Of a DNA stretch of 64,000 nt, positions 53 to 25,277 are shown piece by piece. Every line of letters begins with the position of its first letter. Within the stretch, counting starts at the first letter, position 1. Where the stretch lies: positions 186,001 to 250,000 of the forward strand of contig NZ_JAASQJ010000006.1 in the NCBI RefSeq assembly GCF_011762185.1, in the 5' to 3' direction. A model generated the notes under the pieces. That model saw only the letters and a program-made list of their open reading frames with translations, did no database searches and had not been told where the DNA came from. The translations under genes were made by a program, and so were the position numbers. Origin of the DNA: Dyadobacter arcticus (GTDB lineage: Bacteria > Bacteroidota > Bacteroidia > Cytophagales > Spirosomataceae).

Positions 53-2474
53 TTTATTGGTATTACTGGTTTCGTGCGCATTGTTGACTGGCTGCTCCGT
101 CAATAAATACATTCCTGCAGGTCAAAGCTTGTATGTAGGTAACAAAGTCAATGTGCAGGCTGACAGCATTTCTAAGCCGAATGTTTCTGGTGTGGCTGAT
201 CAGTTGGAAGGAATTATAAAGCCGCCGCCAAACAAAACTTTGTTTGGGTTTGCGTGGAAAGTTTGGTTTTATTATTGGATCGGCGAACCGAAACGGGAAG
301 GGGGATTGAAAAGCTGGTTCCGGAACAAACTCGGTGAGCCTCCGCGATTTGCATCACAGCGTGTAGTTGATATCAATGCATCCAATATGGTTTCGTTTCT
401 GGACAATGAAGGTTACTATCGGTCTTCGGTGAAGGGGAAACTGATCCAGAGCAAAAAGGAAAGCCGGCGGACTGCGACAGCCGAATTTGATGCCTATGTC
501 ATGCCTAGATATGTGATCAATGAGATTACTTATGTAGTACCCGACAGTTCGCTTTTCAACAGAGACCTGGTCCTTTCCAAGAAAGATACTTATCTGAAAA
601 AAGGGGATCCAATGCGGCTGGATGTCATTTCTTCCGAGAGAAACCGTATTGACAATGAATTAAAAGGTAAAGGTTACTACTATTTCAATCCGGACTATCT
701 GATCATTAAGGTTGATTCTACCATTGGGAGAGCGGATTCCACGCTGGGGCCTCAGCAGGTGAACCTATTCCTGGAAGTGAAAAAAGAAACGGCACAAAAC
801 TACCTGAAACAGTATTTTATCAATCGTATCTATGTTAATACAGGAACGGATGAAAACAAATCTGCGGACTCATCTTACAGCCAGCCTTTGCGACGCGGGC
901 TGGATATCAAGGATCCGGGGAAATTATATAAACGGCGCATCTTCTACGATGCAATAGGTTTCCGCCGGGGTTCAATGTACACGAACACGACGCACGACAT
1001 CTCACTGCAGCGGCTTGTCAACCTTCAAAATTTCAAATTTGTAAGAAACCGTTTCGAAATTGTCCCCAGGTCCGATTCCGCTTTGCTGGATGTGTATTAT
1101 GATTTGGAGCCGTTGAAGAAGAAATCTATTCAAACCCAACTTACTGCTAGCACCAAATCCAGTAACCTTGGCGGTTCGCAATTAGACCTTACATGGAGGA
1201 ACAGGAATTCTTTCAAAGGAGCAGAGATGTTGTCAATCAGCCCTTATTTTGGGTTTGACGTGCAGCTGGGAGGAGGTACTTCCAACGCCCGCAGGACGGG
1301 AAATGAATATATTCGTTACGGAGCAAGGGCTGATCTTTCCTTTCCTAGATTTGTTATCCCATTTTTAAGGATTCGTCCTGAAAAAAGTCAGGTATTGCCA
1401 AAGACAATACTATCGCTGGTCTTTGAAAACAGGATACAAAGAAACTTTTACACTTTGAGATCCATTCGAGGAGACTGGTCTTACAACTGGCGAAAAAACC
1501 AAGAGGTGGAGCATACCCTAACGCCCATCTCCATCAACTTCGTTGAACCACGTAAAGTCAATTTGGAGCTCCTGGCAGACATTGCAGATGATCCCAACGT
1601 AAATCCTTTGGATCTTGACCGAATTTACAAAACGGTAGATCAAAAATACTTTTTAGCCGGGTCTAATTATACAATTTCTTATCGCCCCATTCCAAGGCCT
1701 TTTAGCCGAAATCAGTTTGCATTATCTGGAGGGATCGATTATGGTGGTAACTTACTCAGCCTTTTTGCCAAAAGACCTCTTCCACCTGACGATACATTAC
1801 CCAAAGAATTCTTGCGGGTCCCTGTTTTTCAATACATTAAGCTAGATGGCGATATAAGGTACTACAGGACTATCACACCAGGTATTAAGTGGGCTAACCG
1901 TTTGCTATTAGGAGCAATCAGGCCTTATGGCAATTCTAAAACTATGCAAACGCCATTGTTTAAACAGTATTTTGGAGGGGGAAGCACTGGTATCAGAGCT
2001 TTCAGAGCACGCGCCCTCGGTCCTGGCGCTTACCCTCCTGATACTGCAAGGATTAGTTTACTTGGCTACCAACAGTTTGCCGATATAAGAATGGAATTCA
2101 ACAGCGAGCTTCGCTTCCAATTCACAAAAATAATAAATGGTGCTGCTTTTGTGGATGCTGGAAATATTTGGGCTTTTGGCGATTCTTTGCGTGCAGGGTA
2201 TGATTCAAGAGGACTGATAAGTAGAGGATTTCTTAGACAATTGGCGGTCGGAGGTGGTATTGGTTTACGTCTGGATTTCTCGTTCCTAATTTTCCGGCTA
2301 GATTTGGCAACTCCATTTAGAAAACCTTGGTACAAAGGGCTTGCAGATCCTGATAATCCCGATGATCCAACCAAGAATAAAAATCCGTGGGTATTCAATG
2401 AAATTAACTTTGGAAGCAAGGCTTGGAGAAAGGAGAATTTGATATTAAATATTGCGGTCGGATTACCGTTTTAA
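42..2474 (+). CDS. tamL: TamL, Omp85-family outer membrane lipoprotein of the translocation and assembly module
   Basis: This 810-residue protein has a lipoprotein signal ending in the lipobox LLTGC (Cys18), then a POTRA-rich periplasmic half (about residues 30-370) and a C-terminal D15/Omp85 beta-barrel (about 400-810). The barrel includes the conserved FGGGSTGIRAFRARALGPG stretch near residue 650 and ends in a hydrophobic VGLPF. TamL replaces TamA in Bacteroidota: it is the outer-membrane half of the TAM system that helps insert outer-membrane proteins, working with the periplasm-spanning TamB. The lipid-modified Cys and the length match that family. The start overlaps the upstream reading frame. 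A strong hairpin terminator follows the stop. Confidence 0.9.
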   Translation: MKNSLLVLLVSCALLTGCSVNKYIPAGQSLYVGNKVNVQADSISKPNVSGVADQLEGIIKPPPNKTLFGFAWKVWFYYWIGEPKREGGLKSWFRNKLGEPPRFASQRVVDINASNMVSFLDNEGYYRSSVKGKLIQSKKESRRTATAEFDAYVMPRYVINEITYVVPDSSLFNRDLVLSKKDTYLKKGDPMRLDVISSERNRIDNELKGKGYYYFNPDYLIIKVDSTIGRADSTLGPQQVNLFLEVKKETAQNYLKQYFINRIYVNTGTDENKSADSSYSQPLRRGLDIKDPGKLYKRRIFYDAIGFRRGSMYTNTTHDISLQRLVNLQNFKFVRNRFEIVPRSDSALLDVYYDLEPLKKKSIQTQLTASTKSSNLGGSQLDLTWRNRNSFKGAEMLSISPYFGFDVQLGGGTSNARRTGNEYIRYGARADLSFPRFVIPFLRIRPEKSQVLPKTILSLVFENRIQRNFYTLRSIRGDWSYNWRKNQEVEHTLTPISINFVEPRKVNLELLADIADDPNVNPLDLDRIYKTVDQKYFLAGSNYTISYRPIPRPFSRNQFALSGGIDYGGNLLSLFAKRPLPPDDTLPKEFLRVPVFQYIKLDGDIRYYRTITPGIKWANRLLLGAIRPYGNSKTMQTPLFKQYFGGGSTGIRAFRARALGPGAYPPDTARISLLGYQQFADIRMEFNSELRFQFTKIINGAAFVDAGNIWAFGDSLRAGYDSRGLISRGFLRQLAVGGGIGLRLDFSFLIFRLDLATPFRKPWYKGLADPDNPDDPTKNKNPWVFNEINFGSKAWRKENLILNIAVGLPF

Positions 2475-16583: not shown

Positions 16584-19500
16584 ATGAAGATATCAGCACC
16601 GCGCCTTTATTACTTTCTCACACTATTTATTCTCTCGTTGACTATGAATACTCAGGGTCAAAATGTTGTCAAAACTTATGATGCGCAATGGAAAGCCGTG
16701 GAAGCCTTCCAGGGAAAGGTGCTTTCTAAATCGGCCCTGGAAGAAGTAAAAAAGATCTACCAATTGGCTAAAAAGGAAAAACAAGAAGCCCAACTCATCA
16801 AGGCTGCCGTTTACATGATCATTGTACAGGGTGAAAATCGGGAAGATAATGGGGTAATAGCTATCCGTGAGCTAGAAGCCGAGCTGGCCAGTAGCACCGA
16901 ACCTGCGGCAAGGGCCATCCTTAGCAGCCTGGTTGCAGACCAATATTATTTTTATTATCAAACAGTCCGCTGGCAGTTATACGACCGCACGGCGACTGTG
17001 GGTTACGTGAAAAGTGATATAAGTACCTGGGGTACGGAAGATTTTCATGCAAAAATTGCTGAGTTATACCTTGCTTCCATTCAAAACGAAAGCTTACTCC
17101 AAAAGACAAAACTGGCACCCTTTGAAGCAATTATCACCGAAGGAAATACGAGGCCTTTGCGCCCGACTTTATTCGATCTGCTCACTCATAATGCATTAAA
17201 ATATTTTACTTCTGATGAAAGGGAAATTACAAAGCCTTCGTACGCATTTGAGATCAATACAGCGTCTGCATTTGACCCTGCTGCTGATTTTATTTATAGA
17301 AAATTTGAAATGAAAGATTCCACCTCGCTCGAATTTTTCGCAATTCAGCTCTACCAGAAATTAATCGCCTTTCATCTTAATGATCCAAAACCGGATGCAT
17401 TGATTGATATTGACCTGCAAAGAATTCAATATATAAATAGCAAGTCTGTTCATCCGGACAAGGATCAGCTTTATCTCACGGCAATAAATCATGTGGCAGA
17501 ACAGTATCAAAAAACGCCGGCAGCCGCACAGGCCTGGTATCTTCTGGCCGCCTACTACCAGAAACGTGGAGAGTTATTTAAGGTTGGCAGAGACTCGGTT
17601 CATCAATTTGAAAAGATAAAAGCTGTTGAAATATGCGAAAAAATCCTAAAAGAAAACCCGGAAACAGAAGGTGGTATCAATGCTTACAACCTAATAACTA
17701 CCATTCGGCAGAAGGCACTTCAATTTTCTGCGGAGAATGTCAATGTTGTCGACAAGCCATTTCTTGCTTTTGTGGAGTTTAAAAACTTCACCAAGCTGTA
17801 TCTGAGACTTGTGAAAGCAACTGACGAAATCCATATTAGTAAACGAAAAAATAGCATTGACGATACTTGGCGGATCCTGGCGAAAGCACCGGTTTTGAGG
17901 TCCTGGTCACAGGATTTGCCAGATACGAAAGATTATCAGCAACATGGTGTTGAGATAAAAGTAGATGGTTTGCCAGTGGGTGAATACGTGCTGTTGGCGA
18001 GTTCAACTGGCAACTTCAATGAAAGCAAAGCGATTATGGGTTCTCGCATGCTGTATGTGAGCAACGTCAGTTATGTTCGGAAAGAGAATGATTTTTTTGT
18101 TTTGGACAGGGATACCGGCCAGCCGCTGGGTGGCGCAAAGGTCCAGGTGTGGAACCAGATGTATGATTACGCTTCGCATAATTACAAGGAACGAAAGGGG
18201 AATTTGTACATCACGGACCAGAATGGGCACTTTAATAATAAAGTAGAAGTCGCCAACGAAAAAGTGGAAGGCCAGTCTCTGGAAATTACCTATAATCAGG
18301 ACAGGTTGTTTATGAAGGAGCCTGTCGACACTTACTATAATCTGATCGACGTCGATAGCGGGGAAACCGGAGAGTCTGATAATAATGCCATTTATCTCTT
18401 CACCGACCGGAGCCTTTACCGCCCCGGACAGACTGTTTTCTATAAAGGAATCGCACGAAAAGGTAATACTGTTTCGACAGATCAAACGCGGAAAATTCAA
18501 GTCGTCCTGCAAAATGTTAACAACGAATCCGTTGAGGAGACGACGAAGAATGTCAATGAATACGGGAGTTTTTCGGGTTCATTTGTGCTTCCGCAAGGTA
18601 CGCTGAACGGCCAGTTTTCTATTGAGGCAGATCTTGAGCATGCCATTTATTTCCGCGTGGAAGAATATAAGAGACCTAAGTTCTCTGTCGAATTTGACAC
18701 ATTGAAAACTTCTTACAAACTCAATGATACCATTAAAGTCACCGGCATAGCGACAGCCTACGCAGGAAATACCATTGACGGCGCAAAAGTATCTTACCGG
18801 GTTGTTCGTAAAGAACGAATCATTTATTCCTGGTTTTACCGCGATCGGTATCCTGTCTCGAGAATTCCAATGGAAATCGCTCATGGAGAGAGCATTACGG
18901 ATGTTTCCGGCCGGTTTTCTGTCACTTTCGAAGCCATTCCAGACAAGCAGACTGATAAAAAACTCGAACCGATTTTCGATTACACCATTCACGCCGATGT
19001 GACGGATTCCAATGGCGAAACCAGAAGTGCGGAGACGAATGTTTCGGTAGGATACAAATCCATTTTATTAAAAGCGGACATTCCCGAAAAGGTTGCGGCC
19101 GACAGTCTCAAAAATCTATCGGTCCGCACAGAAAACATGAATGGGAAATTTGTATCGTCCGATATTACGGTTAAAATATTCAGTCTAATTCCTGAAAAAA
19201 GATTGATCCGCAAACGCTACTGGGAACGTCCTGACTTATTTGTAATGACTAACACGGAATTCATAGCAAATTTCCCGCATGATGAATACGATAAAGAAAC
19301 GGAAATAGAAAGCTGGCCGGAACAGAATTTAATCTCACAACAAACCACACGACTTTCTGAAAATCAAAAATTCCCGCTGGCAGGCGTCAGGTTTACGCCG
19401 GGTTTTTATAAAATTCAAATCACAACAAAAGACGAAAACGGGGACGAAATAAAGGATTTGAAATACATTGAACTTACAAACCCCGAAAGCAACAGACTGT

Positions 19501-22500
19501 TACGGCCCCAATATTTGTATACAGAAGGCAGCTCCTCCATTGAACCGGGCGAAAAAACGAGTATCCAACTGGCAACTTCGGCCGACCATATCTTTGTAAT
19601 AAGCAATTCCACCAAAATGCCAAACCCAAAGGCGTACTCATTTCTGGAATTAAATGATCAGAAAAAAACCCTGGATTCCTCTGCTACCGAAGCCGACCGG
19701 GGCGGATATGGGGTATCCTATGTATTCATAAAACATAACCGCATTCACCAGCATCAGGAAGTGATCCAGGTTCCGTGGACGAATAAGGACTTGAAAATTA
19801 GTTACGAAACATTCCGGGATAAGACATTGCCGGGAAGTAAGGAGCAATGGAAAATCAAGATCTCGGGATATAAAAAAGACAAAGTTGCAGCGGAAATGCT
19901 GGCAAGTATGTATGATGCGTCGCTCGATCAACTTTACACGCATCAATGGACAAAACCTGATCCGTGGCCGGTTTTATCTGGGATACCACCGTGGAATGGC
20001 AATGAAAATTTTGAATCCAAAGACGCTGACATACTCGACCTTGCATTCGGTTCTTACAAAAGTTTTGAGAAGAGGTATGATGAGTTGCTGAGCACTTACT
20101 CCATGATGAATAACCGTTTAGCTCGCGGCGGTGGACGGAATGTGAGGTATAAAAGAAGTATGGTAGGAAGTGCAACTGAGACCAAACGGGATCAGGAAGG
20201 ATTAGCCAGCCCGGCCGCTGCCCCTATGATGATGATGGATTTGGATCAATCGGCTTTGAATGAAGTCACAAAGGTTGGTGATGGTGATCAAGATAAAAAG
20301 GAACAATCTTCGCAAAGCACTAATAAGCGAGCTGGGAAGGGAGTAACAATCCGCAAAAACTTCAATGAAACCGCATTCTTCTACCCGGACCTGAAAACCG
20401 ATGCAGACGGATCCATCATATTTTCATTCACGCTCCCGGAAGCACTTACCCGTTGGAAGTATCAGGCGCTGGCGCATACGAAAGAACTGGCCATTGGATA
20501 CAGTTCCAAAGAGATCATTACCCAAAAGGAATTAATGTTGCAGCCCAATGCACCCCGTTTTCTTCGAGAAGGCGACCATATCACATTTCCAGCCAAGATC
20601 GTAAACCTTTCGAATCGTGCATTAAAAGGAATGATATCTCTTCAACTGTTTGATACAGAGACAAATCAGCGTGTTGATGATTTATTCAAAAATGGAAAGC
20701 CAGAGAATCCATTTGACATCCCGGCTGGACAGAGTATGACCGTTGGATTCCCAATTGAAATTCCAAAAGACTTTACTAAAACACTTACCTGGCGGATCGT
20801 CGCCAAATCAGAAGCATTGTCGGACGGCGAAGAGAACATTCTGCCCATTTTGTCCAACCGAATGCTGGTAACCGAAAGCATGCCAATTTCAATGCGCGGG
20901 ACTGGAAGTAAAGACTTTAAATTTGAAAAGCTGCTGCATTCAGCGAATTCGAATACGCTGAAAAATAAGTCGTTAACAGTGGAATATACCAGTAACCCTG
21001 CCTGGTACGCGATCCAATCGTTGCCATTCCTGATGGAATATCCCTACGACTGTGCCGAGCAAACCTGGAACCGTTATTACGCCAATTCACTTGCTGCGTA
21101 TATAGTTGGGAGTTCGCCGCGTATTGGAAAAGTTTTCGAAAGCTGGAAAATTGTCGATACCACAGCATTGCTGAGTAATCTGGCGAAAAATCAGGAACTG
21201 AAATCAGTCCTTTTGGAAGAAACGCCTTGGGTACTGGCCGCCAAAACCGAGGCGCAGCAGAAAAGGAACATTGCATTGCTTTTTGATATGGTCAGAATGG
21301 GTAATGAATTGAATGCTGCTTTGGATAAATTAATCCAGTTACAAAGCGCAAATGGCGGTTTCGTCTGGTTCAAAGGCGGCCCGGACGATCGCTACATGAC
21401 GCAATATATTATCTCGGGTATTGGGCATCTAAAAAAAGTGAATGCATTGCAAAAAGATCAGGAAGAACGGATCAATGCGATCCTGAAAACTGCCTTTCCT
21501 TATCTGGATAAAAGGATCAGGGAAGATTATAATCTGCTCGTGAAATCAAAAAGCAATCTCAAAACATATGTTCCCGGGCCGATTCAGATTCATTATTTGT
21601 ACATGCGAAGCTTTTTCCCTGAGGTACCCATTGCCGCAACTTCGCTCCCAGCCTATCAGTATTTTAAGGAAAGATCGAAGCTTACCTGGATTAACCAACC
21701 CAAATATCTGCAAGGCTTAACCGCATTGGAACTTCATCGCGGCAACGACAAGACCGTCCCAAAGGCTATTCTCAAATCGTTGAAAGAAACGGCTGTCGTT
21801 ACCGAAGAAATGGGAATGTACTGGAAAACCGCCCAAAGAGGCTGGTGGTGGCATGAGGCACCCATTGAGCGTCAGGCATTGCTGATTGAGGCTTTTCAGG
21901 AAATTGAGAATGACCCCAAAACAGTCGATGATCTTAAAACCTGGTTGCTCAAAAACAAGCAGGTCAGCAATTGGGAGAGTACGAAAGCCACAGCCGAGGC
22001 TTGCTATGCATTACTTTTGAAAGGATCCGATTGGCTTTCACAGGAGCCCGAGGTGACAATTAACCTTGGAAGTACGGTTTTGAAAGCATCCGGGAATTCA
22101 ACCGAGGCGGGCACAGGTTACTTTAAGAAAATCATCGAGGCTGAACAAATTAGCGCTTCCATGGGAAATGTAAAGATTCAAGTCAGCGATCCAATTAGCC
22201 TTTCCTTTCCACCATGTCCGGCACCAACCGGCTCGGGCGAACCCACTTGGGGCCTGCCCGGCTGGGGCTCCATCTACTGGCAATATTTTGAGGATTTGGA
22301 TAAAATCACCTCAGCCGAAACACATTTAAAACTATCCAAAAAGCTCTTTATCGAAAAAAATACGGACAATGGCCCTTTGCTCTCGCCAATAAATGAAGGA
22401 GATGTTGTAAAGATCGGCGATAAAATCAAGGTCCGCATTGAACTTCGGGTCGACAGGGATATGGAATATGTTCACATGAAAGATACGCGTGCATCGGGTC

Positions 22501-22751
22501 TGGAACCGGTAAATGTGCTGAGCGGATTCAAATGGCAGGGCGGTCTGGGTTACTATGAAAGCACGAAGGATGCAAGCACAAATTTCTTTTTCAGCAATTT
22601 AAGCAAAGGCACTTATGTGTTCGAATATCCGCTATTCGTAGCCCACGAAGGCGATTTCAGCAACGGGATTACGAGTATTCAATGCATGTACGCGCCTGAG
22701 TTTTCGGCGCATAGTAAAGGGGTGAGGGTGAAAGTAAATGGGAGGAAATGA
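16584..22751 (+). CDS. Very large alpha-2-macroglobulin-like protein with thioester motif
   Basis: This 2055-residue secreted protein has a signal peptide ending near NTQGQ. The first 600 residues are helical and beta regions without clear motifs, then come MG2-type beta-sandwich domains (LYRPGQTVFYKGI near residue 620), a Ser/Gly/Met-rich low-complexity stretch resembling a bait region (about 1178-1252), and the A2M domain with thioester motif PYDCAEQTWNRY. Cys1490 and Gln1493 should form the reactive thioester. A helical toroid and receptor-like domain follow. Bacterial A2Ms trap proteases in the periplasm or at the surface. It has no lipobox Cys at the end of the signal, so it may be soluble or anchored differently. 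Unlike enterobacterial yfhM, it has no adjacent pbpC. Confidence 0.9.
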   Translation: MKISAPRLYYFLTLFILSLTMNTQGQNVVKTYDAQWKAVEAFQGKVLSKSALEEVKKIYQLAKKEKQEAQLIKAAVYMIIVQGENREDNGVIAIRELEAELASSTEPAARAILSSLVADQYYFYYQTVRWQLYDRTATVGYVKSDISTWGTEDFHAKIAELYLASIQNESLLQKTKLAPFEAIITEGNTRPLRPTLFDLLTHNALKYFTSDEREITKPSYAFEINTASAFDPAADFIYRKFEMKDSTSLEFFAIQLYQKLIAFHLNDPKPDALIDIDLQRIQYINSKSVHPDKDQLYLTAINHVAEQYQKTPAAAQAWYLLAAYYQKRGELFKVGRDSVHQFEKIKAVEICEKILKENPETEGGINAYNLITTIRQKALQFSAENVNVVDKPFLAFVEFKNFTKLYLRLVKATDEIHISKRKNSIDDTWRILAKAPVLRSWSQDLPDTKDYQQHGVEIKVDGLPVGEYVLLASSTGNFNESKAIMGSRMLYVSNVSYVRKENDFFVLDRDTGQPLGGAKVQVWNQMYDYASHNYKERKGNLYITDQNGHFNNKVEVANEKVEGQSLEITYNQDRLFMKEPVDTYYNLIDVDSGETGESDNNAIYLFTDRSLYRPGQTVFYKGIARKGNTVSTDQTRKIQVVLQNVNNESVEETTKNVNEYGSFSGSFVLPQGTLNGQFSIEADLEHAIYFRVEEYKRPKFSVEFDTLKTSYKLNDTIKVTGIATAYAGNTIDGAKVSYRVVRKERIIYSWFYRDRYPVSRIPMEIAHGESITDVSGRFSVTFEAIPDKQTDKKLEPIFDYTIHADVTDSNGETRSAETNVSVGYKSILLKADIPEKVAADSLKNLSVRTENMNGKFVSSDITVKIFSLIPEKRLIRKRYWERPDLFVMTNTEFIANFPHDEYDKETEIESWPEQNLISQQTTRLSENQKFPLAGVRFTPGFYKIQITTKDENGDEIKDLKYIELTNPESNRLLRPQYLYTEGSSSIEPGEKTSIQLATSADHIFVISNSTKMPNPKAYSFLELNDQKKTLDSSATEADRGGYGVSYVFIKHNRIHQHQEVIQVPWTNKDLKISYETFRDKTLPGSKEQWKIKISGYKKDKVAAEMLASMYDASLDQLYTHQWTKPDPWPVLSGIPPWNGNENFESKDADILDLAFGSYKSFEKRYDELLSTYSMMNNRLARGGGRNVRYKRSMVGSATETKRDQEGLASPAAAPMMMMDLDQSALNEVTKVGDGDQDKKEQSSQSTNKRAGKGVTIRKNFNETAFFYPDLKTDADGSIIFSFTLPEALTRWKYQALAHTKELAIGYSSKEIITQKELMLQPNAPRFLREGDHITFPAKIVNLSNRALKGMISLQLFDTETNQRVDDLFKNGKPENPFDIPAGQSMTVGFPIEIPKDFTKTLTWRIVAKSEALSDGEENILPILSNRMLVTESMPISMRGTGSKDFKFEKLLHSANSNTLKNKSLTVEYTSNPAWYAIQSLPFLMEYPYDCAEQTWNRYYANSLAAYIVGSSPRIGKVFESWKIVDTTALLSNLAKNQELKSVLLEETPWVLAAKTEAQQKRNIALLFDMVRMGNELNAALDKLIQLQSANGGFVWFKGGPDDRYMTQYIISGIGHLKKVNALQKDQEERINAILKTAFPYLDKRIREDYNLLVKSKSNLKTYVPGPIQIHYLYMRSFFPEVPIAATSLPAYQYFKERSKLTWINQPKYLQGLTALELHRGNDKTVPKAILKSLKETAVVTEEMGMYWKTAQRGWWWHEAPIERQALLIEAFQEIENDPKTVDDLKTWLLKNKQVSNWESTKATAEACYALLLKGSDWLSQEPEVTINLGSTVLKASGNSTEAGTGYFKKIIEAEQISASMGNVKIQVSDPISLSFPPCPAPTGSGEPTWGLPGWGSIYWQYFEDLDKITSAETHLKLSKKLFIEKNTDNGPLLSPINEGDVVKIGDKIKVRIELRVDRDMEYVHMKDTRASGLEPVNVLSGFKWQGGLGYYESTKDASTNFFFSNLSKGTYVFEYPLFVAHEGDFSNGITSIQCMYAPEFSAHSKGVRVKVNGRK

Positions 22752-22779
22752 TGATCTCTAAAATTCTTATCTTTAACCC

Positions 22780-23562
22780 GTGGAAAACATTGGCTTTTTA
22801 GAAATAAAAATAACCGGATCGAAAGGGAATCTTGATCTGTCTCCTGATAATTACGATATCAGAGAGATTATTTCTGTACTTGAGAATGCTGAAAATCTTT
22901 TATATCCTGCTGACAAAAACAATAGACCTACTATCAGTTACAAAATTGAGGAAGGATCAGTAAAGCACGTATTTAGAACTTCTATTCAATTCATAATCGG
23001 TTTCAATGCCGTGATCGGCCAGATCAATCAAATCCGGAACATCGATTTTCTCGATGTATCAACAGCCAAGGCTTTTGAAAATATTCAGGATATTGCCCTT
23101 AAACATGATTATGTCTTTGATATCAAAACCTCGCTTGAAAATTCGAATGAAGTGAGATTAGATAAGCAGACCAACTTTGTGAGGACAGAGTCCATCTGGG
23201 TCGATGCGGAGTTCTATTTTTATGGAAAACTCACCAATGCAGGTGGCAAGGATAAGGCGAACATTCATATCTACACGGAGAATATGGGGACATTAAGAAT
23301 ACAGACCCCAATTAGCTTTTTGGAACATTACAATGAAAATTTACTATATAAGACTTTCGGAATCAGAGCATTAGGCAAACAAAATTCCGAGACTGGCCAA
23401 ATCGACACTTCAACCTTGAAATTTGTTGAATTAGTAGATTATCATCCGGGATATGATGAAGAATATCTAAATAACTTAATTAGTAAAGCTTCTAAAAGTT
23501 GGTCCGACATCGGGGACAAAGATCAATGGCTTAGAGAAATAAGGGGTAGCTATGAAACATAA
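22780..23562 (+). CDS. Unknown 260-residue partner of a PIN-domain protein
   Basis: The frame opens with GTG at 22780, 28 bases after the alpha-2-macroglobulin gene, and ends 11 bases inside the following PIN gene, which implies coupled translation. The first 110 residues look alpha/beta, with one hydrophobic helix (FRTSIQFIIGFNAVIGQI, about residue 67-84). The second half (about 130-215) is a run of beta-strands like a small barrel, and the C-terminus is acidic and helical (DQWLREIRG). I recognise no family, DNA-binding motif or antitoxin fold. By position it could be the antitoxin or the effector-control subunit of the PIN nuclease. At 260 residues it is about three times the size of a typical VapB. 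Confidence 0.8.
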   Translation: MENIGFLEIKITGSKGNLDLSPDNYDIREIISVLENAENLLYPADKNNRPTISYKIEEGSVKHVFRTSIQFIIGFNAVIGQINQIRNIDFLDVSTAKAFENIQDIALKHDYVFDIKTSLENSNEVRLDKQTNFVRTESIWVDAEFYFYGKLTNAGGKDKANIHIYTENMGTLRIQTPISFLEHYNENLLYKTFGIRALGKQNSETGQIDTSTLKFVELVDYHPGYDEEYLNNLISKASKSWSDIGDKDQWLREIRGSYET

Positions 23563-24031
23563 GGGAGTATTTTGCGATACAAGCTTTTTCATCCGCTTGC
23601 TGGATGCAAAAGATCCGTTGCATTACAATGCCAGAGGATACTTTAAATATTTTGCAGAAAATGACTATGCTCTGTTGATAAGTACCATTGCAATTGCCGA
23701 ATATTGCGTTGGCGGCAGCCTCCAGGAATTACCTTTGAGAAATTTACAAATTATTCCTTTCAATCTGGATCATGCGCAAAGAACTGGTGAATTTGCACGA
23801 ATCATTTTCGCGAAGAAAGGCGAATTATATATTAAAGAAAGGAAGATAATTCCCAACGATACGAAGTTATTCGCGCAAGCGGATTCTGAAAAGAATGCTG
23901 ATTTTTTTATATCCTCAGATAGCGAAAGTATAAAAATCTATACCCTCCTGAGAAAAGAATCGAATCCTAAATTCCAATTTATCGATCTCAGTACTCCTTA
24001 CAATGAAACATTCGGAATTTTAGCAATTTGA
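23552..24031 (+). CDS. PIN-domain ribonuclease, VapC-like
   Basis: The 159-residue protein has the acidic residues of a PIN nuclease in order: Asp9 in CDTSFFIRLL, Glu50 in IAIAEYC, Asp103 in PNDTK and Asp123 in FFISSDSES. These would hold one or two metal ions for RNA cleavage. The length fits VapC-type toxins. The gene overlaps its unknown upstream partner by 11 bases and no VapB-like small antitoxin is present. Function as a toxin is inferred from the fold; PIN proteins also act in RNA processing. It converges with a DegT-type aminotransferase gene 22 bases away. Confidence 0.85.
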   Translation: MKHKGVFCDTSFFIRLLDAKDPLHYNARGYFKYFAENDYALLISTIAIAEYCVGGSLQELPLRNLQIIPFNLDHAQRTGEFARIIFAKKGELYIKERKIIPNDTKLFAQADSEKNADFFISSDSESIKIYTLLRKESNPKFQFIDLSTPYNETFGILAI

Positions 24032-24053
24032 TTCGTTTTATCTAAAAGGTTTA

Positions 24054-25277
24054 CTACGCATTGACCGCCGCCTGAATCTTCAAAATGGCCTCTACAAACA
24101 ATTCCATATCCTTCTTTTCGCCTAACATGGCATGTTGCAAAATCCAAACAGCATCGGTATTGCAGGCTTGCTCGGCAACCGGGCAGCAAACTTCGCTGTA
24201 ATCTGCCGTTTCAGGAATGGCGTAGCACATGAAGTTTTTTTTCTGGAAAAGTGGCTGTTTGTAAAGCGGGTGTGGGTATCCTTTGAAACTGGGCACACCC
24301 TCAGCGGCCAACATCTCAGCAAAAGTATTTTTGGGCAGGCCTCCAAACTTGGAAGCGTCGTATTTAAATATGTAGATATGATAGCAATGCCTCGTGATCT
24401 CTTCGCCTCGGCTTAAAGGCGTAATTCCTTCCACTTCGGCCAGTAACTGGTTCAGATATAGACCGTTTTCATTCCGCTTGCAGGTTTGCGCTTCCAGCCT
24501 TTTGAGTTGTTCCGAAAGTAATACCGCCTGCATTTGCGTGATCCTGTAATTGCAGCCCGGATTATAATGGTCGTACCATTGTCCGCCCTCAATCCTACCC
24601 ACATTACGCAGCGAGCGCATCATTGCATACAGTTCGTCATCATCCGTAATCACAATCCCGCCTTCACCCGACGTGAGATTTTTGGAAGATTGAAAACTGA
24701 AACTGCCCACATCGCCAATAGAACCCAACTTTTTCCCTTTATACTCTGCACCATGTCCGTGCGCCGCATCTTCAACCACCTTCAATCCGTGGCGTCTGGC
24801 AATGTCCATGATCGCATCCATGTCGCAGGCAAGTCCCCCAAAATGAACCGGGACGATCACTTTCGTACGGTCGGTGATAGCCGCTTCAATCGCAGCAGGA
24901 CTTATATTGTAGGTGTCCGGATCAATATCCACAAACACAGGCACACAATTGCATTCGATGACCGACGAAGCGGTGGTGATGAAGGTATAGGGTGGCACAA
25001 TGACTTCGTCGCCCGGCTTCACACCACAGGCAATCAGCGCGAGGCGAAGAGAAACCGAACCATTGACGCAGGTAATGGCGTATTTACTCCCGCAGTAATC
25101 GGCAAACGCCTTTTCAAATTTCGCTACTTCATCCCCGCAATCCGGATTTCCCCACTTCCCACTCTGCACGATCGCAGCCACTGCATCGACTTCGTTCTGG
25201 TCATAAACCGGCCAGTTGAATGATTTGGTAATCGTCTTTGCCCCTCCGTTAATTGCCAGATTTCGGTCCATATGCAT
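24054..25277 (-). CDS. DegT/DnrJ/EryC1/StrS-family PLP-dependent aminotransferase
   Basis: The 407-residue protein shows the family pattern: an N-terminal NGG...W.VYD segment, PGDEVIVPPYTFITTASSV, the cofactor-binding VVEDAAHGHGAEYKGKK, and the lysine-bearing SFSFQSSKNLTSGEGG, where Lys would carry pyridoxal phosphate. Such enzymes aminate keto-sugars or keto-cyclitols for surface polysaccharides and antibiotics, and some are dehydratases or regulators. The alternative start two codons in (M3) is equally possible. No sugar-nucleotide genes adjoin it, so the substrate is unknown. It is divergent from a polytopic membrane protein gene. Confidence 0.88.
   Translation of the reverse strand: MHMDRNLAINGGAKTITKSFNWPVYDQNEVDAVAAIVQSGKWGNPDCGDEVAKFEKAFADYCGSKYAITCVNGSVSLRLALIACGVKPGDEVIVPPYTFITTASSVIECNCVPVFVDIDPDTYNISPAAIEAAITDRTKVIVPVHFGGLACDMDAIMDIARRHGLKVVEDAAHGHGAEYKGKKLGSIGDVGSFSFQSSKNLTSGEGGIVITDDDELYAMMRSLRNVGRIEGGQWYDHYNPGCNYRITQMQAVLLSEQLKRLEAQTCKRNENGLYLNQLLAEVEGITPLSRGEEITRHCYHIYIFKYDASKFGGLPKNTFAEMLAAEGVPSFKGYPHPLYKQPLFQKKNFMCYAIPETADYSEVCCPVAEQACNTDAVWILQHAMLGEKKDMELFVEAILKIQAAVNA

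Follow-up and report, generated by a model that had tools for sequence, protein, structure and literature searches.

Overlapping genes of Dyadobacter arcticus for a PIN-type nuclease and a 260-residue partner predicted to be its antitoxin

Two overlapping genes of Dyadobacter arcticus encode a PIN-type nuclease and, as its partner, an uncharacterised protein of 260 residues, and the co-occurrence of the two genes is not due to chance. Here, we analyse this pair in a window of 64,000 nucleotides (contig NZ_JAASQJ010000006.1, positions 186,001 to 250,000), together with its relatives elsewhere. We read the pair, with a probability of about 0.7, as a self-contained, horizontally moving toxin–antitoxin module of a type II-like kind, in which the 260-residue protein would be an unusually large antitoxin. 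An earlier note on this DNA had proposed a distinct type II-like module or a regulated RNase complex, a proposal that is now supported; gene order, overlap, mostly one-sided decay, mobility and tail–PIN co-variation fit the first of these alternatives. The partner represents an unnamed family of over a thousand clusters that emerges as a near-obligate companion of a nuclease, with a pairing rule at the level of single residues.

Layout, identity and spread of the gene pair

The list of open reading frames places both genes on the forward strand: the partner gene, the predicted antitoxin, at 22780–23562 (GTG start, 260 amino acids) and the PIN nuclease gene, the predicted toxin, at 23552–24031 (ATG start, 159 amino acids). 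The two share positions 23552–23562, in agreement with the 11-base overlap that had been pointed out before. The PIN protein matches PF01850 in a Pfam search (E = 2.1e-4, 22.3 bits), slightly under the 23.6-bit cut-off, which counts somewhat against a toxin–antitoxin reading. Its four predicted catalytic residues, D9 (23576–23578), E50 (23699–23701), D103 (23858–23860) and D123 (23918–23920, all on the forward strand), are invariant in 32 of 32 aligned PINs, that of a Bordetella phage-like replicon included, confirming their earlier assignment as Asp9, Glu50, Asp103 and Asp123. On the basis of its family and this invariant acidic site, the protein would be a metal-dependent ribonuclease toxin. 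A PIN profile gave no PDB match at E ≤ 0.001, and no family among the PADLOC-DB 2.0.0 models was matched by either protein.

A search with the partner gave 1688 relatives at E ≤ 1e-3; among the 120 matches listed, no Pfam domain had been precomputed for any, and such names as are shown read ‘hypothetical’ or ‘uncharacterized’. For the window protein itself, searches of Pfam, NCBIfam and PADLOC produced no family at E ≤ 1, and the sole PHROG that it matches does so at E = 0.16. The earlier note had described a partner about three times as long as a VapB and lacking a visible DNA-binding motif, and both points stand; a known antitoxin or enzyme family was looked for in these collections, and in Pfam with relatives as well, and none matched. 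Weak Pfam matches of partner relatives were set aside as chance, the matched family varying from member to member. A profile search, one of the checks proposed earlier, yielded no Pfam family and no convincing match in the PDB (best E 0.36 and 0.52), and, among the open-access papers listed in literature searches, none was recognised as describing the partner family.

Alignments divide the partner into three parts, all on the forward strand: an N-terminal part with an invariant G59-S60 (residues 1–143, 22780–23208), a middle part with an OB-fold-like strand pattern (residues 144–222, 23209–23445) and a C-terminal tail that is predicted to inhibit PIN (residues 223–260, 23446–23559). In an OB fold, five strands form a barrel and a helix lies between the third and the fourth. 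The corresponding pattern of strands and a helix in residues 144–222 was read by eye, from sequence only, in a cross-phylum alignment, is without PDB or Pfam support, and agrees with the beta-rich second half that had been remarked on earlier. Five residues (G59, S60, G149, G155 and Y190) are invariant across both phyla in 25 sequences.

The two genes are nearly always found together. In the named-genome set, which comprises the best 80 of 87 confirmed partner loci, a PIN match lies directly downstream of the partner in 79, and the contig of the 80th stops at the partner; in a survey of 296 Bacteroidota genomes, the partner was present in 10, each of which also has the PIN. The overlap is kept as well: among 66 loci with a whole PIN gene it measures 11 bases in 55, 8 in seven, 4 in two and 14 in one, and a single pair is spaced by 6 bases. 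Homologues that rarely occur together, an outcome that would speak against a joint function, were thus not what the survey found, and the near-constant pairing and retained overlap uphold the joint function read earlier from the tight coupling. The overlapping genes are probably translationally coupled.

A plasmid record of Bordetella bronchiseptica led to a more distant branch of 33 clusters, assigned to Burkholderiales where named. In this record (NZ_CP132331.1, L110:3326–4591), a 256-residue relative of the partner is followed by a 160-residue PIN protein. Because the record also holds terminase, portal, capsid and tail genes, we regard it as a phage-like replicon. This pair lies outside the phylum of most relatives found. 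In a viral collection, three contigs carry a partner relative, each followed by a PIN, and a further hit there (L114) was discarded as a chance phage match. The most distant Bacteroidota pair (L017:2240–3744) stands, by eye, directly before a tyrosine-integrase-like gene. No conserved third gene was detected: 134 of 195 listed neighbour ORFs yielded 165 Pfam families, none of them in more than two members. Matches to defence models among neighbour ORFs, few and counted without a control set, comprise SoFic and some PDC models twice, a type I specificity model once, and others; they are not taken as an enrichment. Two apparent natural fusions that span partner and PIN (P0121 and P0122) were treated as frameshift products and not as functional fusions: the CDTS motif of PIN is missing at the junction, where the residues resemble, by eye, a translation of the same DNA in its other frame.

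Co-variation of the partner tail with the PIN N terminus

Across 66 partners, residues 223–258 have the highest mean entropy of five regions, by a small margin (1.56 versus 1.52 for the next). Four tail residues are nonetheless strongly conserved in these partners: W241 (94%), W250 (98%), R255 (98%; codon 23542–23544, forward strand) and G256 (95%). The equivalent W, W, R and G are each present in at least 90% of 25 sequences spanning Bacteroidota and Pseudomonadota; the most distant Bacteroidota relative (L017) keeps the RG and, by eye, lacks both tryptophans. In the VapBC complex of Shigella flexneri, VapB Trp47, Trp50, Phe51 and Phe60 are reported to pack on helices 1–4 of VapC, and VapB Arg64 to enter the VapC active site against Glu42 and Asp98 (PMC3384007). 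The same order of aromatic anchors followed by an arginine suggests, by analogy, that the partner tail inhibits PIN in the manner of VapB. The tail would lie on the N-terminal helices of PIN with the two tryptophans as anchors, and R255, as the counterpart of Arg64, would be pushed into the PIN acidic site. The body of the partner, that is, its N-terminal and OB-like domains, is probably not the part that grips PIN. A possible role for it is the sensing or binding of a ligand, nucleic acid or other, by which release is controlled; this is the weakest step of the proposal.

The partner tail and the PIN N terminus change together. Once the rest of the partner is accounted for, the distances of the tail over 78 pairs still correlate with those of PIN, with a partial r of 0.425, versus at most 0.277 for 16 other 36-residue windows of the partner; the tail is the best window in 294 of 300 subsamples, and none of 2000 permutations reaches 0.425. 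The signal is concentrated in PIN residues 1–53, with which the tail gives 0.455 and other windows at most 0.213. With PIN 54–106 and 107–159, the tail gives 0.168 and 0.144, and other windows are higher (up to 0.324 and 0.272, respectively). Corrected mutual information agrees in placing the tail in 16 of the top 40 partner–PIN residue pairs (5.8 expected), 15 of these 16 with PIN 1–53, and the three leading pairs (I234–H24, I234–L16 and G245–Y25) connect the tail to PIN residues 16–25.

The leading pair follows a simple rule. In the first set of pairs, a histidine at PIN 24 (codon 23621–23623 in the window, forward strand) accompanies isoleucine or methionine at partner 234 (codon 23479–23481, forward strand) in 46 of 46 cases, and phenylalanine, tyrosine, asparagine or cysteine at PIN 24 accompanies arginine at 234 in 34 of 34 (80 of 80 together). 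A second set held 23 further pairs, in one of which the PIN residue was unreadable (L234); the other 22 obey the rule, and 15 pairs were left after removal of any that reached about 97% identity with the first set. The rule thus holds in all 96 rows, made up of the first set, the 15 new pairs and the window. On a tree of the remaining partner sequence there are six rule switches, two of them on strongly supported branches, and a test of the rule on independent pairs was not significant, with too few supported switches. Two pairs whose matches were too short stand outside the 96 rows: L017 has, by eye, Q with R, which fits neither type and weighs against the toxin–antitoxin reading, and the Bordetella pair has, likewise by eye, V with H.

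Co-variation of this kind could also arise if tail and PIN start were exchanged as one block of DNA, with no contact between the proteins. The two segments are contiguous in the DNA, a confound that sequence alone cannot separate, and the signal reaches PIN 1–53 and not 54–159. A smooth decay with distance is nevertheless absent, because the windows immediately upstream of the tail give the lowest values (window 181–216, just before it, has 0.038), and in VapBC it is likewise helices 1–4 of the toxin that contact the antitoxin tail (PMC3384007). We consider block exchange a somewhat unlikely explanation that still deserves real weight; by itself, it would also suggest that tail and PIN must match.

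A prophage supplies a tail on its own. Just upstream of the terminase genes in an integrated prophage of another Dyadobacter genome (G300), a 65-residue ORF (L199:2255–2452; also L232:14755–14952) consists mostly of the partner tail: 35 residues match partner 223–257 at 51% identity (E = 2.9e-7). It retains the W, W, R and G and has isoleucine at position 234, which is the H24 type, and the genus PINs that were read have H24. The prophage carries integrase, capsid, protease, tape measure and terminase genes, and G300 has no PIN match. This ORF could be an antitoxin mimic, or a remnant. For a mimic there is precedent in AdfB, a small protein of phage origin that reportedly counters DarTG by serving as antitoxin to the host toxin (PMC11481870); the ORF here is a single case known from its sequence. 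If it is a mimic, the tail would be a minimal inhibitor, and an antiphage role for the pair would be indicated; the partner–PIN pair is possibly antiphage. The ORF was the sole tail-only case in surveys of 48, 395, 395 and 360 genomes (overlapping sets), and no further tail-only phage ORF appeared in viral contigs, in phage records or in whole genomes, whether searched by phylum, by class or by order. Other tails in the whole-genome surveys belong to frames of at least 210 amino acids, or to one of 69 amino acids at a contig end (G123). Among 11 tail-pattern hits in viral contigs, two were full pairs and eight were other reading frames or unrelated; a phage protein with a similar motif inside a longer sequence (L213) was probably a chance hit.

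Mobility and one-sided decay

The distribution of the pair, as judged from genome comparisons, is patchy, and the pair is mobile between bacteria. A partner tree built by a quick method mixes orders, with the near-identical partners of Pedobacter, Lunatimonas and Bacteroidales bins standing together on end branches of 0.014–0.046, although bins may contain foreign contigs. Some clustering by order persists, because order labels change 22 times on the tree, whereas shuffling gives 27.5 on average and a number as low as 22 once in 200. Within the genus, the partner frame occurs in 7 of 48 genomes. The pair of the window occupies a slot (22752–24053) between an alpha-2-macroglobulin-type gene (16584–22751, forward strand), of which a tested portion of 250 residues has a bMG10 domain, and a reverse-strand gene for a DegT-type aminotransferase (24054–25277), and this slot is a variable cargo site in the genus. 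The two flanking genes are within about 7.1 kb of each other in 32 of 41 genus genomes. The slot is empty, with some 10–50 bases between the matches, in nine (G300, G301, G303, G310, G315, G316, G341, G344 and G346), holds the pair in three (G000, G314 and G318) and has longer gaps in 20, 16 of which were read. In G311, the pair adjoins DegT, and a macroglobulin-type match is absent from that genome. In G334, the slot is filled by the antitoxin VapB15 and a PIN toxin of TIGR00305. The pair thus moves as one block of about 1.3 kb, and the site that receives it also accepts a classical toxin–antitoxin pair.

This distribution bears on whether the proteins form a housekeeping complex for RNA processing, for example in tRNA or rRNA trimming, with its subunits encoded together. 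Conserved pairing, an intact active site and a conserved partner would all suit such a complex. We nevertheless hold it to be very improbable, because the pair is patchy (10 of 296 Bacteroidota genomes and 7 of 48 in the genus), has moved across orders and includes broken PIN genes.

The breakage falls mostly on one side. Of the PIN genes in the 80 named-genome loci, 66 are whole (that of L069 included), and seven are broken next to a partner that is whole (L040, L043, L054, L067, L091, L105 and L106); both genes are broken in L093, L051 is ambiguous, and in five loci the contig runs out no more than 421 bases from the partner (L058, L061, L068, L074 and L081, the first two of which may also carry broken PINs). 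Because these loci had been found through the partner, we recounted on loci picked by the tail profile alone, examining 31 of 35 distinct places. Here, 25 PINs are whole (that of L237 included), four are broken or absent beside a whole partner (the second copy in G112, and G116, G582 and G506), both genes are damaged in one (G728, locus L244) and one lies at a contig end. In total, PIN has been lost beside a whole partner in 11 loci, versus one unclear locus of the reverse kind. That locus (L069:1–743, the same contig as L237) has a whole PIN, and the first 52 residues of its partner were not found, with 122 bases to the contig end; the partner gene may be truncated or the site an assembly join, and the locus counts against the toxin–antitoxin reading. 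Surveys that started from PIN (296 and 39 genomes, overlapping) found a single partnerless one, a remnant in G249 that is matched from residue 54 or 62 onwards and hence lacks at least residues 1–53, with D9 and E50 among them. Some of the broken PINs may stem from sequencing errors of a single base in draft assemblies, but such errors should strike the longer partner gene equally often. Mostly one-sided decay of PIN is the pattern that a toxin with its antitoxin should show. The second partner copy in G112 (L018:1438–2483), which has no PIN, is followed by two genes of the opposite strand, read by eye as a small ORF and an hsdS-like restriction specificity gene.

The same counts address the main rival, a two-protein antiphage nuclease resembling DS-5, in which the partner would be a required sensor or scaffold and PIN inert alone. 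DS-5, like the present pair, consists of two genes for a PIN nuclease and a non-classical partner; both were reported to be needed for defence, deletion of the partner released no toxicity, and the system was described as likely not a toxin–antitoxin (PMC13092281). The size of our partner and its well conserved parts, the mobility of the pair and the related pair in a phage-like replicon would all fit, and a prophage ORF copying the tail alone would suit an inhibitor of a defence nuclease. Yet the DS-5 partner has DUF5830 and an AcrIF4-like domain (PMC13092281), and DUF5830 was found neither in the window partner, four distant relatives or 21 genus genomes nor in the set of 17 families matched at E ≤ 0.1 by one or more of 66 relatives. 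A required activator, moreover, should not outlive its nuclease in 11 loci as against one unclear reverse, and the partner tail resembles the inhibitory tail of VapB. We therefore judge a DS-5-like system unlikely.

Promoter position and relation to known systems

Upstream of the partner gene lies a −7 promoter element, TATCTTTA (22768–22775, forward strand; the last base differs from the consensus TAnnTTTG), which stands at −12 of the partner start and ends 4 bases before the GTG. Among 92 partner genes, the strict TAnnTTTG occurs at −15 to −11 of the start in 51, in 40 of them at exactly −12; it occurs in 9 of 487 mechanically listed neighbour ORFs, even with every early start codon admitted. 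Partner relatives most often begin with GTG (58 of 92). A clear −33 element was not found: TTG at a spacing of 22 occurs in 6 of 59 TAnnTTT genes, and in fewer elsewhere. In Flavobacterium, the sigma-A box is reported to occupy positions −12 to −5 relative to the site where transcription begins (PMC9723704). Given this spacing, a box at −12 of the start codon implies that transcription should begin at the start codon, and the partner message is by analogy predicted to be leaderless, starting with the antitoxin codon itself. Such a start would be unusual, as leaderless messages are reported to make up 5.5% in Flavobacterium psychrophilum (PMC9723704) and 5′ regions shorter than 10 nt about 3.7% in Bacteroides thetaiotaomicron (PMC7366714). 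In a more speculative reading, such a message may stay translatable, or be translated in preference to others, when PIN damages the normal initiation machinery, and the antitoxin would then amount to a built-in brake. Classical autoregulation is unsupported, because upstream inverted repeats are not enriched (18 of 92 genes versus a shuffled mean of 13.8, maximum 20) and the partner has no recognisable DNA-binding domain.

In VapBC systems, the antitoxin gene comes first, and the antitoxin is a small protein of about 70–100 amino acids with an RHH, AbrB, HTH or Phd DNA-binding domain. The present pair resembles the system of S. flexneri (PMC3384007) in its PIN toxin with four acidic residues and in the aromatic anchors and C-terminal arginine described above, and it has a gene in the antitoxin position that lies upstream of the toxin gene and overlaps it (11 bases in 55 of 66 loci). 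It differs in its 260-residue, sequence-unrelated partner that matches no VapB family, and in the predicted leaderless promoter. The roughly threefold size and the lack of a recognisable DNA-binding domain count against a toxin–antitoxin reading, and we do not file the pair as VapBC, because the partner falls outside the definition of VapB on both; the earlier view that the pair fits no known VapBC layout is thereby upheld. The guilt-by-association survey of Makarova et al. (2009) likewise links PIN toxins with many antitoxin families, naming RHH, AbrB, PHD, COG2442, COG2886, COG2856, MazF/ccd, MerR, COG2880 and COG1753 as likely antitoxin partners; the uncharacterised 260-residue family is absent from the passages of its Tables 1–3 consulted here (PMC2701414).

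A broader picture is tentative and, taken whole, doubtful: a widespread modular class of PIN systems, each with a ligand-sensing body and an interchangeable, type-matched plugging tail, countered by phage genes for the tail alone and held by a leaderless brake. Should the tail indeed act as plug and the body as sensor, the family would offer a route to what such systems sense.

The VapB15/PIN pair in the genus slot of G334 (NF047401 with TIGR00305) shares with the window pair a PIN toxin, an antitoxin gene in first position and the slot itself; its antitoxin has 73 amino acids and its PIN matches PF13470 best, whereas our partner has no NCBIfam match. Besides this pair, the slot cargo (L182–L197) includes RNA-ligase-like, acetyltransferase-like and DNA alkylation repair genes and smaller or larger blocks; three genes are acetyltransferase-like by eye, and one DNA alkylation repair enzyme was tested. 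Single genes that are RNA-ligase-like by eye fill the slot in five genomes (L187–L191), and the one tested has an RNA_ligase domain of the Rnl2 type. RNA repair genes and RNase cargo thus use the same slot, which may merit a look.
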